Assembly: GCA_028703445.1 (NCBI GenBank)
Contig: JAQVMW010000007.1
Coordinates: 18,935 to 82,934, forward strand
Direction: 5' to 3'
Length of the DNA stretch: 64,000 nt
Source of the DNA: Candidatus Peribacteraceae bacterium
GTDB lineage: Bacteria; Patescibacteriota; Gracilibacteria; Peribacterales; Peribacteraceae
The notes beneath the pieces were generated by a model, which searched no databases, was not told the origin of the DNA, and was given only the letters and a program-made list of their open reading frames with translations. Of the stretch, positions 58,162 through 63,850 are shown piece by piece (the first letter of the stretch is position 1; each line of letters starts with the position of its first letter). A program made the translations under genes and the position numbers.

Positions 58162-58923
58162 TCAAGATTCTTTCCGCGCGATTTTTCCTGTTGTGGTTTG
58201 CGCTGTAGGGACAATAACAATCTGCTGGATATTGACATGTTTGGGACGGCTCAATGCGTACCAGATCGCTTCGGCGACGTCTTCGGCATGGAGCGGCTCG
58301 TAGCCCTGGTAGACCTTCTTCGCTTTCTCGGTATCGCCGTGATAACGCACCACACTGAATTCCGTATCCACGTTGCCCGGATTGATTTCAGTCACCCGGA
58401 TGCCCGAACCCAGCAGGTCGATACGGGCTCCTTGATTGATGGCGTGCACGAAGTGCTTTGTACCACAGTAGGTGGCTCCGTTCTCATAGATCTCCAGGCC
58501 CGCAATGCTCCCGATATTGACCAAATGACCCTGCGTTTTTTTCAGATGAGGAATGCTGAGCAGCACGACCCGCAGGAACGCGGAAATATTCAGATCGATC
58601 ATTCCCTGCAAATCCTCATCAGAGGCTTTATCCAGAGGATCACGGCCAAGCGCCTTGCCTGCATTATTGATGACTGCTTCTAGAGGGAACTCCTTTAATT
58701 CATTGAACATTTTTTCGAGAGCCTTGCGATCAAGCAGATCGAGAGGTCTGAGTACAACTTTCACTCCCTCCGGCTTTAATTCCTTTTCGAGAGCGCTGAG
58801 TTTTTCCTGCCGTCGTGCAACGAGGATGAGATTCTTCTTCTCCTTCGCCAAACGGACTGCTGTTGCCCTGCCGATACCGCTGCTCGCACCTGTGATGAGA
58901 ACATATGACTCCATCGGTTCCAT
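58162..58923 (-). CDS. Short-chain dehydrogenase/reductase
   Basis: This 253-aa classical SDR has the cofactor motif TGASSGIGRAT (residues ~10-20), VARRQEK suggesting NADP(H), NNAG near residue 88, the catalytic Ser in NIGSIAG and the YCGTK tetrad segment near 153. It resembles YdfG-type 3-hydroxy acid dehydrogenases. It is divergent from the TrpR-like gene with 40 bp between, so the two may share control. The substrate is unknown. Confidence 0.82.
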   Translation of the reverse strand: MEPMESYVLITGASSGIGRATAVRLAKEKKNLILVARRQEKLSALEKELKPEGVKVVLRPLDLLDRKALEKMFNELKEFPLEAVINNAGKALGRDPLDKASDEDLQGMIDLNISAFLRVVLLSIPHLKKTQGHLVNIGSIAGLEIYENGATYCGTKHFVHAINQGARIDLLGSGIRVTEINPGNVDTEFSVVRYHGDTEKAKKVYQGYEPLHAEDVAEAIWYALSRPKHVNIQQIVIVPTAQTTTGKIARKES

Positions 58924-58963
58924 TGTAGTACGTTGGCAGAGAAAGGGTATACTTTCTTGAGAT

Positions 58964-59257
58964 ATGGCGATTCCCCAAAAACATCTCCGGGATCTCTACG
59001 CGCTTTTTTCCTCTGTACGAAGCCAAGTGGAGGCGGAGAAGCTTCTTGCCGACATCCTCACGCCGCAGGAGCTCGCGTCGGTCGCGGAACGCTGGCAGCT
59101 GATTCAGGAGCTCAACAAGGGAACGCCCCAGCGGGATATCGCGAAGAGGCTCAATCTCAGTATCAGCAAGATCACGCGGGGATCGAGGATGCTGCAGTAC
59201 GGAAGCGGGGGATTTGGTCTTTTTCTGAAGAAATTGAAGAAGGCGAATCAGAAATAA
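58964..59257 (+). CDS. TrpR/YerC-family transcriptional repressor
   Basis: This 97-aa helical protein matches the Trp repressor superfamily as represented by YerC/YecD. LADILTPQELASVAERWQLIQELNKGTPQRDIAKRLNLSISKITRGSRML contains the helix-turn-helix (QRDIAKRLNLSISKITRGS). The DNA-binding helix agrees with TrpR-type ISKITRGS. It could sense tryptophan or a related ligand. A palindrome resembling the trp operator lies about 300 bp downstream, ahead of a chorismate-pathway gene. A TATACT box lies ten bases upstream of the ATG. Confidence 0.8.
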   Translation: MAIPQKHLRDLYALFSSVRSQVEAEKLLADILTPQELASVAERWQLIQELNKGTPQRDIAKRLNLSISKITRGSRMLQYGSGGFGLFLKKLKKANQK

Positions 59258-59552
59258 TTCGAAGACTCCTTCTTTCCATCTTTGTCCGGCGACAAAAGAG
59301 GGTGTGTGTGGTCTTCTCGTTGAGAGTTGTTTGAGTCTGTTTCTTTTGTCAGAGGAGGAGGGAACCTTGTCCGGTTCCCTACCCCCTCCGACACCTCTCT
59401 TACCCTCCTGACGGCCAAGCTTAGGTGGGAAACCTGCGGGTTTCCCCCCACTTCCGTTCCCCCCTTCCAACCGGTTTTGTCCGTTGTTTTTGTGTTCTGT
59501 GAGCTGTTTTGTTCTTTTCTTTGAAAAGGGATTGATCAGGGAAGAGGGGTGG
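59258..59552 (+). other. Structured intergenic region upstream of the aromatic cluster
   Basis: Two strong hairpins are visible: GGAGGGAACC/GGTTCCCTACCCCCTCC near 59355-59390, and GTGGGAAACC/GGTTTCCCCCCAC near 59423-59448. No convincing ORF with coding character lies here. The hairpins may end the TrpR-like transcript or belong to the palindromic repeat family. Confidence 0.4.
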
Positions 59553-59572
59553 TGTACCGTTGTAACGGTACA
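59553..59572 (+). promoter_or_regulatory. trp-operator-like palindrome
   Basis: TGTACCGTTGTAACGGTACA is a perfect 9-2-9 inverted repeat. It overlaps a TACAAA -10 candidate (59569-59574) eight bases before the ATG at 59583. E. coli TrpR sites are likewise about 18-20 bp palindromes with GTAC-containing ends, so the TrpR-like protein encoded just upstream is the natural candidate to bind it. Confidence 0.6.
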
Positions 59573-59582
59573 AAGGTATTTC

Positions 59583-59870
59583 ATGCCCATCATTCGTTTC
59601 TCCTCATCGGCAGGTGAGTTCGCCACCGGAGTTCCGGATGTCGCAGCTTCCTACATGCGCCATCCAGAGCAATTCGGCTATCGATTTAATCCCGCGCTCA
59701 CCGCACAATTGAACGGAGAAACGGTTTCCACACTCCTTGAGCGTATCCGGCTTGCGGCGGAGTACATTGATGGACAACGCGTGGAGATTGCCACAAGTAT
59801 CCAAGGACTTTTTGTCTGTATTGAGCCGACATTCGGAGGAGGAAGCACGCCGTGGCGCGGGCATGCGTGA
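59583..59870 (+). CDS. Small orphan protein, first gene after the operator
   Basis: The ATG at 59583 (MPIIRFSSSAGEF) gives 95 aa; the track's upstream extension would run through the operator. It has a mixed alpha/beta look (TVSTLLERIRLAAEYIDGQRVEIATSIQGLFVCIEP) and a Gly-rich end (FGGGSTPWRGHA). The family is unknown. It lies 96 bp ahead of the PhzE-like gene. Confidence 0.55.
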   Translation: MPIIRFSSSAGEFATGVPDVAASYMRHPEQFGYRFNPALTAQLNGETVSTLLERIRLAAEYIDGQRVEIATSIQGLFVCIEPTFGGGSTPWRGHA

Positions 59871-59966
59871 GTTCGCAGTACCTTTGAATGACTGATGTTC
59901 AGTCAGGTGTGCGTCTCACGTCATTGGAGCGTATTTTTTTGTATTTCGCATTTTCCTTTCATTCCC

Positions 59967-61853
59967 ATGAAATCTTCTTCTCTCTCATCATCGGCCCCAA
60001 TCGAAGACATACTCCACGGCACCGATCCCTTCGTCATGATACGGCGAGGGGCTGAAGAGGAGGTGCAGGTGCTCTCGGGGACGCAGCGGCTTTGCCACTC
60101 TCTTGCGGATATACAGCGGAGCGTCGGAATGCCGTATTCCGATTCCATCGTTGATACCGTCTGTGCGATTCCTTTCTCCCAGATACGCGAGCGGGGGTAC
60201 GAGGCGCATTCGGAGCATGAGCCGATACGTTGCATCGATATTGTTCAACAGACGAGAGTTAACTTGGAGGAGCTGCTCACTTCCATTCCTTCAGATCAGG
60301 TAGCACTCAAAAACGGTATTCAGTTTGATATGACTCCGGAAGAGTATGCAGAGGTCATCCGGAACATCATTCGCGATGAAATCGGTCAGGGAGAGGGGGC
60401 GAATTTCGTCGTCGCGAACACGGGGAGGGGAACGATCGTCGAGATGAACCGGGCGAAGGCGTTGAGCATCTATCGGTCGCTTCTGCTCTCAGAGCACGGG
60501 AGCTACATGACATTCATATTCTTCGACGGGCAGAAGTACCTCATCGGGGCTTCGCCCGAGAAGCATCTCACTGTTCAGAACAGAGAGGTGACGATGAATC
60601 CGATCAGCGGGACCTTACGGAAGAAGCCGGATCAGCCCGTTACGAAGGAGGAGCTTCTGGAATTTCTCCGCGATGACAAAGAGATCCTCGAGCTTTTCAT
60701 GGTGCTCGACGAGGAGCTCAAGATGATGTCGCAGATGTGCGCGCGCGGCGGGACGGTCGAGGGTCCGCTCCTCAAGAATATGTCGCGGCTCATCCATACC
60801 GAATACCTGCTGCGCGGTCGCAGTGATCTGCCGGCCATTGATCTGCTGCGTACATCCATGTTCGCACCCACGGTCACGGGCAGCCCCATGGGCAACGCGT
60901 GCAGAGTATTGAAGGAGTACGAACCCGGTTCCCGCGGGTATTATGCCTCTGCACTCGCTCTGTTTGGACGGGATGCGCAGGGCGGGGAGAACCTTGATAG
61001 TGCCATTACGATTCGCACGGCGGAGATTGATGCCGACGGCACGCTTGCTGTCCGTGCGGGCGCCACTCTGGTCCGTGATTCGAATCCGGAGAGCGAGGTC
61101 AAAGAGACGCAGGCGAAGCTCAGTGCTCTTCTGGGGAGCATCCTGGATCCGGCTCAGAAAAGATCCGTTCCTTCGGATACAGCTCTCCTTTCTGATGTGA
61201 AGATTCTTCAAGTGCTCGAAGAGAGGAATCTCGATCTCTCCCGCTATTTCCTCGAGGATCAGGAGAGGGTGAACAATTCGCTCGAAGCCGTTCGGAGAAA
61301 GAAGATCACCATCATCGACAATGAAGACAACTTCTGCCAGACGCTCAAGCACATGATGACGAGCATGGGCGCGCGCGTTCGTGTCGTGAGTTACAAGGAG
61401 TACGACTGTGCATCGGATAACGCCGATCTTGTCGTCGTGGGGCCCGGGCCCGGTGATCCCAATGATGAAAAAAATCAGAAGATGCAGAAGCTCCATCATG
61501 TTGTGCATGAGCTTCGCGCATCAGGAAAGAAGTTTCTTGCCGTCTGTCTTGGCCATCAGATCTTAAGCAGGGAGCTGGGTATGAAGGTGTTGCCTCAGGA
61601 GACACCGTCGCAGGGAGTCCGAAAGCAGATCGATCTGTTTGGCGAGCAGCAGCTCGTCGGTTTCTACAATACGTTTTCCGCACGACATGAGAAGGAGATT
61701 CCCGGGGTCCGGATGTCCTACGACGGGGATTCTCGGTGTGTCCATGCGCTCCAGGGCGACCGGTTCGCCAGTTTTCAGTTCCACCCGGAATCCGTACTGA
61801 CGAAGAACGGGTTTCGGATTCTTGGTGAGTCGCTCACGCGGCTGCTTTCATAA
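59967..61853 (+). CDS. PhzE-like chorismate-utilising synthase fused to glutamine amidotransferase
   Basis: The ATG at 59967 gives 628 aa, the usual PhzE size. The chorismate-binding domain has YLIGASPEKHLTVQNREVTMNPISGT, HTEYLLRGRSDLPAIDLLRTSMFAPTVTGSP and RTAEIDADGTLAVRAGATLVRDSNPESEVKET. The C-terminal class I GATase has GPGPGDP, the nucleophile in AVCLGHQILS and FQFHPESV. PhzE makes 2-amino-2-deoxyisochorismate for phenazines; TrpEG fusions make anthranilate. The domain order and spacing favour PhzE, but activity cannot be fixed by eye. The partner is the radical SAM gene 17 bp downstream. Confidence 0.8.
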   Translation: MKSSSLSSSAPIEDILHGTDPFVMIRRGAEEEVQVLSGTQRLCHSLADIQRSVGMPYSDSIVDTVCAIPFSQIRERGYEAHSEHEPIRCIDIVQQTRVNLEELLTSIPSDQVALKNGIQFDMTPEEYAEVIRNIIRDEIGQGEGANFVVANTGRGTIVEMNRAKALSIYRSLLLSEHGSYMTFIFFDGQKYLIGASPEKHLTVQNREVTMNPISGTLRKKPDQPVTKEELLEFLRDDKEILELFMVLDEELKMMSQMCARGGTVEGPLLKNMSRLIHTEYLLRGRSDLPAIDLLRTSMFAPTVTGSPMGNACRVLKEYEPGSRGYYASALALFGRDAQGGENLDSAITIRTAEIDADGTLAVRAGATLVRDSNPESEVKETQAKLSALLGSILDPAQKRSVPSDTALLSDVKILQVLEERNLDLSRYFLEDQERVNNSLEAVRRKKITIIDNEDNFCQTLKHMMTSMGARVRVVSYKEYDCASDNADLVVVGPGPGDPNDEKNQKMQKLHHVVHELRASGKKFLAVCLGHQILSRELGMKVLPQETPSQGVRKQIDLFGEQQLVGFYNTFSARHEKEIPGVRMSYDGDSRCVHALQGDRFASFQFHPESVLTKNGFRILGESLTRLLS

Positions 61854-61870: not shown

Positions 61871-63850
61871 ATGGAACAATATTTCCCTTCTCCGGCCAGA
61901 TCCTTCTATCTCGACGTCAGAGGCGGCAGAGACGATGTACAGAGGAGACTGAACGCCTCGGTTCAAAGGATGCGGCTGGTCGCGACAGGACAAGAGAAAA
62001 TTCCACCGAAGCGCGATGCTGCACGTCTGTTCACTCCTGCTTCCGATCGGCTCAAACATGCCAAACTTGCCGAGCTCACGGAAGGCGGAGGCGTATACCG
62101 CATCGCCTCTTTCGCATCGGATTACGAGAGCAGAGATTCCGTTCCTGTCGTTCGGAACATCCTCCCTCGCCTTGGAGGAACAATCTATGAGGATCCGCAA
62201 GGTTACGGCGTATTCACACTGCCGGAGGAACCACCAATGGAATTCGATCCATCGGGACGTATCCGGAAAGCAAACAATGTTCTGTTGCATGGTGCTGACC
62301 TCCTCCATTACGTGGCATGTCATATACGGCAGGATCTGGCTGCCGTGTTGGTCAAGAGTGATGCGATGCGGTACATGGCTGACATTTCCGTGTTCGAGAA
62401 AACACCGAAAGACGCGCAGGGGAGGAACACGTTCATCGGGAAGGATCTCCTCGACTTTCATGCCAAAGCGCCAAATTTCGGTCCGGTCCTCCGTGAATTC
62501 TTCCCATTGCTGATGCAACTCTTCAGAAAAGATCTCTTGGATGTGTTGACGGTTGATTTGAACGGGCAGCAGCGCTATTCCCATGGTGAAGGAGGGGACG
62601 TGTGCCGCTTTGAGCGCGATCGGTTCATCCCGCTGCGGAGAGCGGATGCATCATTCATGGGCATTCTCGGGGTGGCGGATGCGTTCTTCCAGCACGAAGG
62701 GGAGCACAGCCCCTATGAGGGCGGGAACTTTGTGCGAGGGATCGAGATGCAATCTGACCTCGGGAGAAAGGAGGGAAAGACGAAGGAAATATTGAGGATC
62801 AACAAAACCCCGTATGCGGATATGTTGAGGAGGAATGCCATTCCGCACAGCGAAAGAATGCAGATTCTCCAGAGGCTCCTTTCTCAGAAGGAACGCTATT
62901 TCGACGCAGTCGTTGAGAGCGCTTCCCGCGTCAATCGTCTCGTGTTTGGAGATAAGCTAAAACTCTACGGTATCAGTTACATCTCTGACGAGTGCGTGAA
63001 TGATTGTCTGTACTGCGGCCATCGGGCGTCTTCCGTTCATCAGCGATCCGCGTTGACTCCGGAGCAGATGGCGGAAGATTTTTCCGCAGTGGTGCGGCAT
63101 CGGCCGGAGGAATTCTGCATTCTCGCGGGGGATCACCCACGTGCGGTGCAACGGTGCTGCGATGCCCTTCGTGTGTTGCGTTCGGTGAACGAGAAGTACA
63201 GATCTCCCCTGCAATGCGTCACGCTGAACATCGCGCCACAGACCCCGGAGGATTTTGAAAAGATCGTGGCGGCGGCGGATCCGGTAGTGCGCCTGCAGTA
63301 CCGCATCTTCCAGGAAACGTACGACCCTGCGCTCTACGAACAGTATCACGTCGCCGGTCCGAAGAGCGCATTCCATGACAGGATGACTGCGCAGGAGCGC
63401 GCACTGCAGGCAGGTTTTTCCGATGTTGGCATCGGGGCGCTCATGGGCCTCAATACTGCAGGGCATGATTTTGAGATTATTTCTCTCGTGCAGCATGCGG
63501 ATCGTATCAAGCAGATGTTTGGCAGATATCCCAAAAGTCTTTCCATACCGCGTCATCAACGTGTTGAAGGTTCCGATTTTACCACGCCCAATCCGCTCGA
63601 TGATCGGTCATATATTTACTACCACGCACTTCTGAGAATATTTCTGCCAGAGACGGAATTGATGATCACAAGCAGGGAAACTCCAGAGCTGATTCAAGCT
63701 CTTGAATCACTGGTGAATGTGAGAGACCTTGCTCCCCGTCCCGGCGTAGGCGGAAACATTTGTCCAAGCGTACATTTTCAAAATGAGCTTGGGGATTGTC
63801 GATCCGCAGAGGAAATTCTGGAGGATTTATCACATCGTGGAAAGAGGTGA
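61871..63850 (+). CDS. Two-part protein with C-terminal ThiH/HydG/NosL-type radical SAM domain
   Basis: This 659-aa protein has a ~365-residue N-terminal part that I do not recognise (motifs such as KDLLDFHAKAPNFGPVLREF). The C-terminal radical SAM domain begins with CVNDCLYC (CxxxCxxC) in the context ISYISDECVNDCLYCGHR. VGIGALMGLNTAGHDFEIIS and SIPRHQRVEGSDF, plus RIFLPETELMITSRETPEL, follow the pattern of aromatic amino acid lyases (ThiH, HydG, NosL). Those cleave tyrosine or tryptophan. With a PhzE-like neighbour it suggests tailoring of an aromatic metabolite. A terminator follows. Confidence 0.75.
   Translation: MEQYFPSPARSFYLDVRGGRDDVQRRLNASVQRMRLVATGQEKIPPKRDAARLFTPASDRLKHAKLAELTEGGGVYRIASFASDYESRDSVPVVRNILPRLGGTIYEDPQGYGVFTLPEEPPMEFDPSGRIRKANNVLLHGADLLHYVACHIRQDLAAVLVKSDAMRYMADISVFEKTPKDAQGRNTFIGKDLLDFHAKAPNFGPVLREFFPLLMQLFRKDLLDVLTVDLNGQQRYSHGEGGDVCRFERDRFIPLRRADASFMGILGVADAFFQHEGEHSPYEGGNFVRGIEMQSDLGRKEGKTKEILRINKTPYADMLRRNAIPHSERMQILQRLLSQKERYFDAVVESASRVNRLVFGDKLKLYGISYISDECVNDCLYCGHRASSVHQRSALTPEQMAEDFSAVVRHRPEEFCILAGDHPRAVQRCCDALRVLRSVNEKYRSPLQCVTLNIAPQTPEDFEKIVAAADPVVRLQYRIFQETYDPALYEQYHVAGPKSAFHDRMTAQERALQAGFSDVGIGALMGLNTAGHDFEIISLVQHADRIKQMFGRYPKSLSIPRHQRVEGSDFTTPNPLDDRSYIYYHALLRIFLPETELMITSRETPELIQALESLVNVRDLAPRPGVGGNICPSVHFQNELGDCRSAEEILEDLSHRGKR

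Follow-up and report, generated by a model that had tools for sequence, protein, structure and literature searches.

A predicted TrpR-type operator upstream of an orphan PhzE-like gene in apparently tryptophan-auxotrophic Peribacteria

The window, i.e., the whole analyzed stretch of 64,000 nucleotides from a Candidatus Peribacteraceae bacterium (host genome of 1.37 Mb, completeness 98.75%), carries at 59553-59572 the exact palindrome TGTACCGTT-GT-AACGGTACA, preceded by a gene encoding a TrpR-like protein and followed by a leader ORF, a gene encoding a PhzE-like fusion enzyme and a radical-SAM gene (Table 1). A preliminary description of this DNA had presented the palindrome as perfect over 9 + 9 bp, which is indeed the case, the arms being separated by a 2-nt centre. 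It had also located the palindrome between the TrpR-like gene and a chorismate-using enzyme. Both genes flank it, although the 95-aa leader ORF stands between the motif and the enzyme. The spacer separating trpR from the operator (59258-59530 in the window) holds strong inverted repeats and may include the trpR terminator. Its length is 250-300 bp in genomes G000, G002, G003 and G004, and 36-70 bp in most other relatives.

Table 1. Coordinates of the features at the trpR-operator locus of the window.
Feature	Position	Strand	Basis and details
trpR-like gene, 97 aa, class A, HTH ...QRDIAKRLNLSISKITRGSR...	58964..59257	+	PF01371; TIGR01321 score; conserved trpR-operator order in relatives
-35 element TTGATC	59532..59537	+	TTG position conserved in related loci
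Primary TrpR operator (predicted), TGTACCGTTGTAACGGTACA	59553..59572	+	Sequence; conservation in relatives
-10 element TACCGT (putative), in operator left arm, 17 nt past -35	59555..59560	+	Sequence; conserved spacing
Second operator-like site, overlapping, 8-bp offset, TGTAACGGTACAAAGGTATT	59561..59580	+	Shift test over 25 loci
Leader ORF, 95 aa, resembling the G020 leader ORF	59583..59870	+	Sequence; Trp codon 59853-59855, 5 codons before stop
Possible attenuator	59865..59940	+	Potential pairing of GCGTGAG (59865-59871) with CTCACGT (59915-59921)
PhzE-like fusion, chorismate-binding + glutamine amidotransferase, 627 aa	59970..61853	+	Pfam PF00425 + PF00117; PDB match
ThiH/HydG-like radical-SAM enzyme	61871..63850	+	Same order in G001

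The 627-aa enzyme is described as PhzE-like on account of its fused chorismate-binding and class-I amidotransferase domains and of its full-length similarity. Its best PDB match was PhzE (3r74, E-value of 1.6e-134 over 614 residues), the next match having an E-value of 1.9e-24. An alternative in-frame ATG is possible at 59895. Like the phenazine ADIC synthase PhzE, the window enzyme combines the chorismate-binding and amidotransferase parts in a single chain; unlike in the phenazine pathway, it is followed by a ThiH/HydG-like radical-SAM gene, whose product carries an N-terminal extension of about 280 aa belonging to no known family. The two genes, which are probably co-transcribed, also form a pair in G001, while the radical-SAM gene is absent after phzE in G003 and G020.

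The TrpR-like protein contains a Trp_repressor domain (PF01371, 2.5e-20, 72.8 bits for a cut-off of 27). Two classes could be distinguished among the TrpR-family proteins of the relatives: class A (...SISKITRGS...), which includes the window protein and is nearer to the TrpR model, and class B, whose members pass the YerC model. With 52.5 bits the window protein remained below the cut-off of the TrpR equivalog model TIGR01321 (67.25 bits), the other class-A proteins tested scoring 45.6-60.5 bits, and it is therefore designated TrpR-like rather than filed as a TrpR equivalog. The yerC model TIGR02531 gave 33.2 bits for a cut-off of 42.2, whereas class-B paralogues reached 62-89 bits. Hence, of the TrpR/YerC homology initially put forward, the TrpR side of the family holds and the YerC/HisR identity is ruled out by the profile scores. 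A second TrpR-family gene of the same genome (G000:C3:31442-31681, L099) falls into the YerC/HisR class. The tryptophan-contact residues T44, R54, R84 and G85 of TrpR are retained in the window protein, and S88, a tryptophan contact in E. coli TrpR, is replaced by Met. The DNA-contact positions R69, I79, T83 and R84 of TrpR (PMC9413887) are also retained, and the recognition helix carries two substitutions, A80 to Ser and T81 to Lys.

Inverted repeats with 9-bp arms are not rare in the window, where 36 were counted for spacers of 0-8 nt, including 6 with a spacer of 2 nt. Chance statistics alone were consequently rejected as a measure of significance, and it is conservation, rather than the palindrome itself, that carries the evidence. 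The 20-mer TGTACCGTTGTAACGGTACA is present in a single copy in the host genome, even with up to 3 mismatches allowed, and a repeat element was discarded on this basis. In Peribacteria the 20-bp consensus is TGTAC(C/T)GTTGTA(A/C/G)C(G/A)GTACA, with an unpaired centre, TTGTA, conserved as strongly as the arms. The motif lies beside class-A trpR in dozens of Peribacteria, often letter for letter: it is identical in G002, G004, G010 and G016, differs by one end base in G020, and occurs as variants in G001, G003, G014, G026, G028, G033 and others. A class-wide scan retrieved it in 49 of 353 genomes, and reversing the pattern as a control gave a single match. For 42 of the 58 class-wide sites scored, a TrpR or trp/aro gene is found no more than 700 bp away; the 16 others have no TrpR or trp gene nearby, and part of them are probably chance matches or sites within coding sequence. 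As this set was partly collected because of its TrpR genes, a scan of genomes from about 85,000 species constitutes a cleaner test. It yielded 25 exact places, 12 of them directly beside a TrpR gene, in eleven of the twelve Peribacteria and in one Magasanikbacterium with trp genes downstream. Eight others, SAR11-type matches located inside an open frame of about 300 aa, were taken as coincidence. In two distant genomes (L152 and L166), the exact variant TGTACTGATGTACCGGTACA overlaps the end of an ORF resembling tyrosyl-tRNA synthetase, so named from its N-terminus; this is probably a coding coincidence. The proposal that the palindrome be searched for in relatives was thus answered positively, the motif being conserved beside trpR and before chorismate/tryptophan genes across Peribacteria.

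The label of trp-operator-like, given to the palindrome at the outset, proved appropriate. The motif is very similar to the TrpR consensus TGTAcTnGTnnACnAgTACA from the literature (PMC9413887), with agreement at 14 of the 16 defined positions when the C/T and G/A variation is counted. The two inner half-site positions that differ from the gammaproteobacterial motif may accompany the changes at residues 80 and 81 (A80S/T81K), a correspondence that is suggestive only. Conversely, the published HisR motif cacTTTAnnnnnnTAAAgtg is not matched at 59553-59572; YerC/HisR, whose ligand is histidine, shares with the present system the Pfam family and 20-bp palindromic sites while differing in subfamily and motif (PMC9413887).

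The geometry of the promoter was addressed by comparing 25 trpR-operator loci, in which the operator columns average 1.61 bits, versus 0.29 and 0.20 in the flanks. A TTGATT-like -35 element was found at a fixed 17-nt spacing from a -10 hexamer (TACCGT or TACTGT) located in the left arm of the operator; its TTG begins 21 nt before the operator in 20 of these loci and at -20 to -22 in all of them. TACCGT is a weak sigma-70 match, and scanning 58900-60100 for generic sigma-70 promoters and terminators returned nothing above threshold. The overlap with a promoter, claimed in the preliminary description, is therefore borne out by comparison and not by the generic scan. In many loci the right end of the operator merges into the start codon (...GGTACATG), which implies a 5' UTR that is very short or absent there; the ATG of the window comes 10 bp later. 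In addition, shifting the motif by +8 bp retains a mean of 7.1 of the 10 outer positions over the 25 loci (background 2.4, maximum 3.3), a test that is not fully independent, the left half of the second site being inside the first operator. The shifted frame reads as a TGTA-N10-GTA-like site, and this second overlapping site would account for the conserved asymmetric centre of the operator. As expected for overlapping TrpR dimers, the predicted offset is 8 bp: E. coli TrpR binds in tandem to overlapping sites with this offset. The predicted operator of Peribacteria and that of E. coli have in common a length of 20 bp, TGTAC arms, an overlap with the -10 region and 8-bp-offset overlapping sites.

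Downstream of the operator, the leader ORF gave no match in a Pfam search. It is followed by a hairpin (59910-59933) and a T-run (59934-59940), together forming a terminator-like fold (dG of -14.4). Among the relatives, a Trp codon stands 4-6 codons before the stop in 7 of 15 leader-ORF groups, compared with 4.8% in the background (binomial probability of about 3e-6, with groups assigned by eye and the other predicted proteins of these loci as background), and several of the ORFs concerned are unrelated. This resembles E. coli trpL, where Trp codons are found 5 and 4 codons before the stop. In contrast to the gammaproteobacterial TrpR systems, the leaders of Peribacteria are long ORFs in many genomes, with a start codon in or just past the operator. 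The hairpin after the leader is conserved, 4 of its 10 pairs showing compensatory changes. In G020, G004 and G026, chains of three alternative hairpins outperformed shuffled sequences (0-1 of 100 shuffles), whereas the best chain of the window did no better than shuffles (59/100); an Rfam search produced sub-threshold matches only. Attenuation of transcription is hence likely in some relatives, judging from these sequence patterns. It is weakly supported for the window genome, where an attenuator as such was rejected and kept solely as a family-level inference.

The genes found behind the motif, assigned by Pfam and gene order, vary among relatives. It heads trpE-trpG-trpD-trpCF in G201 and, in G027, trpE, a trpG::DAHP synthase fusion, aroB and further aro genes. 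It precedes trpR-trpE and more trp genes in G314, a trpB-like gene in G199, a trpG-trpE fusion in G202 and G204, and PhzE-like enzymes in G000, G001, G003 and G020. A fusion of a TrpG-type amidotransferase with DAHP synthase was noted at L163:4581-6104 (minus strand), in an operator-headed trp/aro operon. The loci with a trpG-trpE fusion, a PhzE-like gene or small ORFs only are commonly located between rpsO and pnp; the contig of the window assembly ends with the window, so that pnp is outside the view. Where the genome has no chorismate enzyme, a family of small proteins with HP(V/F)(S/T/C)G ... HW.(F/Y)(D/N)P and several Trp recurs 3' of the operator (L067, L080, L087, L134, L138). An Asp/Glu racemase family gene adjoins TrpGE-like or unknown genes in the rpsO-pnp locus (L069, L070, L153, L161).

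Genomes with the rpsO/trpR/operator type of locus appear to have lost the genes for chorismate and tryptophan synthesis. None of the 25 carries chorismate synthase, and indole-glycerol-phosphate synthase (IGPS) is missing in 24, G020 showing one weak fragment. By comparison, ten further genomes with trp genes have chorismate synthase in all ten cases and IGPS in nine; G018 has neither. TrpA was absent from the six genomes tested, those nearest to the window. On gene content, the genomes of this locus type are likely tryptophan auxotrophs, and the window organism seems auxotrophic for both tryptophan and chorismate. The PhzE-like enzyme would thus be an orphan chorismate-using enzyme under tryptophan control in a likely auxotroph. 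A local aromatic-sensing circuit had been proposed for this locus, which the conserved association of motif, trpR and trp/aro genes supports; however, since the genome appears auxotrophic, this circuit would govern no tryptophan pathway.

Altogether, we consider it very likely that the palindrome serves as operator for the TrpR-type repressor encoded next to it, which, once loaded with tryptophan, would repress the unit formed by the leader, the PhzE-like gene and the radical-SAM gene. TrpR binding, tryptophan as ligand and repression are inferred here from the protein family and the conserved wiring. According to this scheme, a tryptophan-loaded TrpR dimer would bind TGTACCGTTGTAACGGTACA, a second dimer probably occupying the 8-bp-offset site, and would cover the -10 region and the start site, thereby blocking RNA polymerase. 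When tryptophan becomes scarce, TrpR would be released, allowing transcription of the leader ORF, of the PhzE-like gene and probably of the radical-SAM gene, to which the late Trp codon of the leader may add attenuation. The operator would work like that of the E. coli type, for a repressor that is TrpR-like by family and fails the curated equivalog cut-off.

Among the other explanations, a genuine operator serving another regulator, or a TrpR sensing another aromatic compound (anthranilate, chorismate or another amino acid), is improbable. TrpR-family members do switch ligand, as illustrated by YerC/HisR and histidine (PMC9413887), S88 is not retained, and there appears to be no tryptophan pathway left in this genome to control; however, protein and motif are of the TrpR and not of the HisR type, the same motif precedes full trp operons in relatives, and Trp codons near the stop of leader ORFs are commoner than in the background. 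Still less probable is a decaying relic, the operator and repressor of a lost trp operon without present function. The missing chorismate synthase (25/25) and IGPS (24/25), together with genomes in which only small ORFs follow the operator, would suit such a decay, yet the motif is base-perfect across different genera whose flanks have diverged, the TrpR ORFs are intact, and relatives share a full-length PhzE-like protein with 77-83% identity. Finally, a terminator hairpin of trpR or another RNA element instead of a protein site was rejected as highly improbable, for although the palindrome is downstream of trpR, is perfect and belongs to a kind of repeat common in the window, no T-run follows this single-copy element, its unpaired centre is conserved like the arms, its distance from the -35 is fixed, its right end runs into the start codon in many loci, and relatives carry it ahead of trp operons and of trpR itself.

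Compared with the E. coli TrpR regulon (trpR, trpEDCBA and aroH; PMC9413887), the TrpR-operator system of Peribacteria relies on the same kind of small PF01371 HTH repressor, and differs from gammaproteobacterial TrpR by its predicted target, here an orphan PhzE-like enzyme whose genome lacks trpC, trpA and chorismate synthase. It is also reminiscent of Chlamydia trpRBA, where TrpR is retained in a reduced, host-dependent genome after the loss of most of the trp pathway; in Chlamydia, however, the last steps (trpBA) have survived, whereas only an enzyme of the first-step type is retained here (PMC6504234; PMC7755916). For CPR/Patescibacteria, the open-access papers searched contained nothing relevant on TrpR, anthranilate synthase or a trp operon, and no such transcription-factor regulon for Candidate Phyla Radiation bacteria. 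The present analysis describes a putative CPR regulon with a precise predicted operator, a promoter geometry and a target list, and a classic biosynthetic regulator retained by bacteria apparently devoid of its pathway. As a guess, the PhzE-like enzyme would form anthranilate or ADIC from scavenged chorismate at low tryptophan. It is conceivable, though rather unlikely, that Peribacteria of this locus type, as tryptophan auxotrophs, keep a two-layer switch (TrpR operator and Trp-codon attenuator) controlling an orphan enzyme that forms anthranilate or ADIC from the chorismate of another organism; under tryptophan shortage, an aromatic compound would be made and exported or used as a signal, the leader ORFs also being real small proteins. 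If true, anthranilate could for example be passed to a partner that returns tryptophan. The orphan chorismate-using enzyme is a candidate for what these bacteria still switch with tryptophan, and the hypothesis of an exchange with the host becomes testable.
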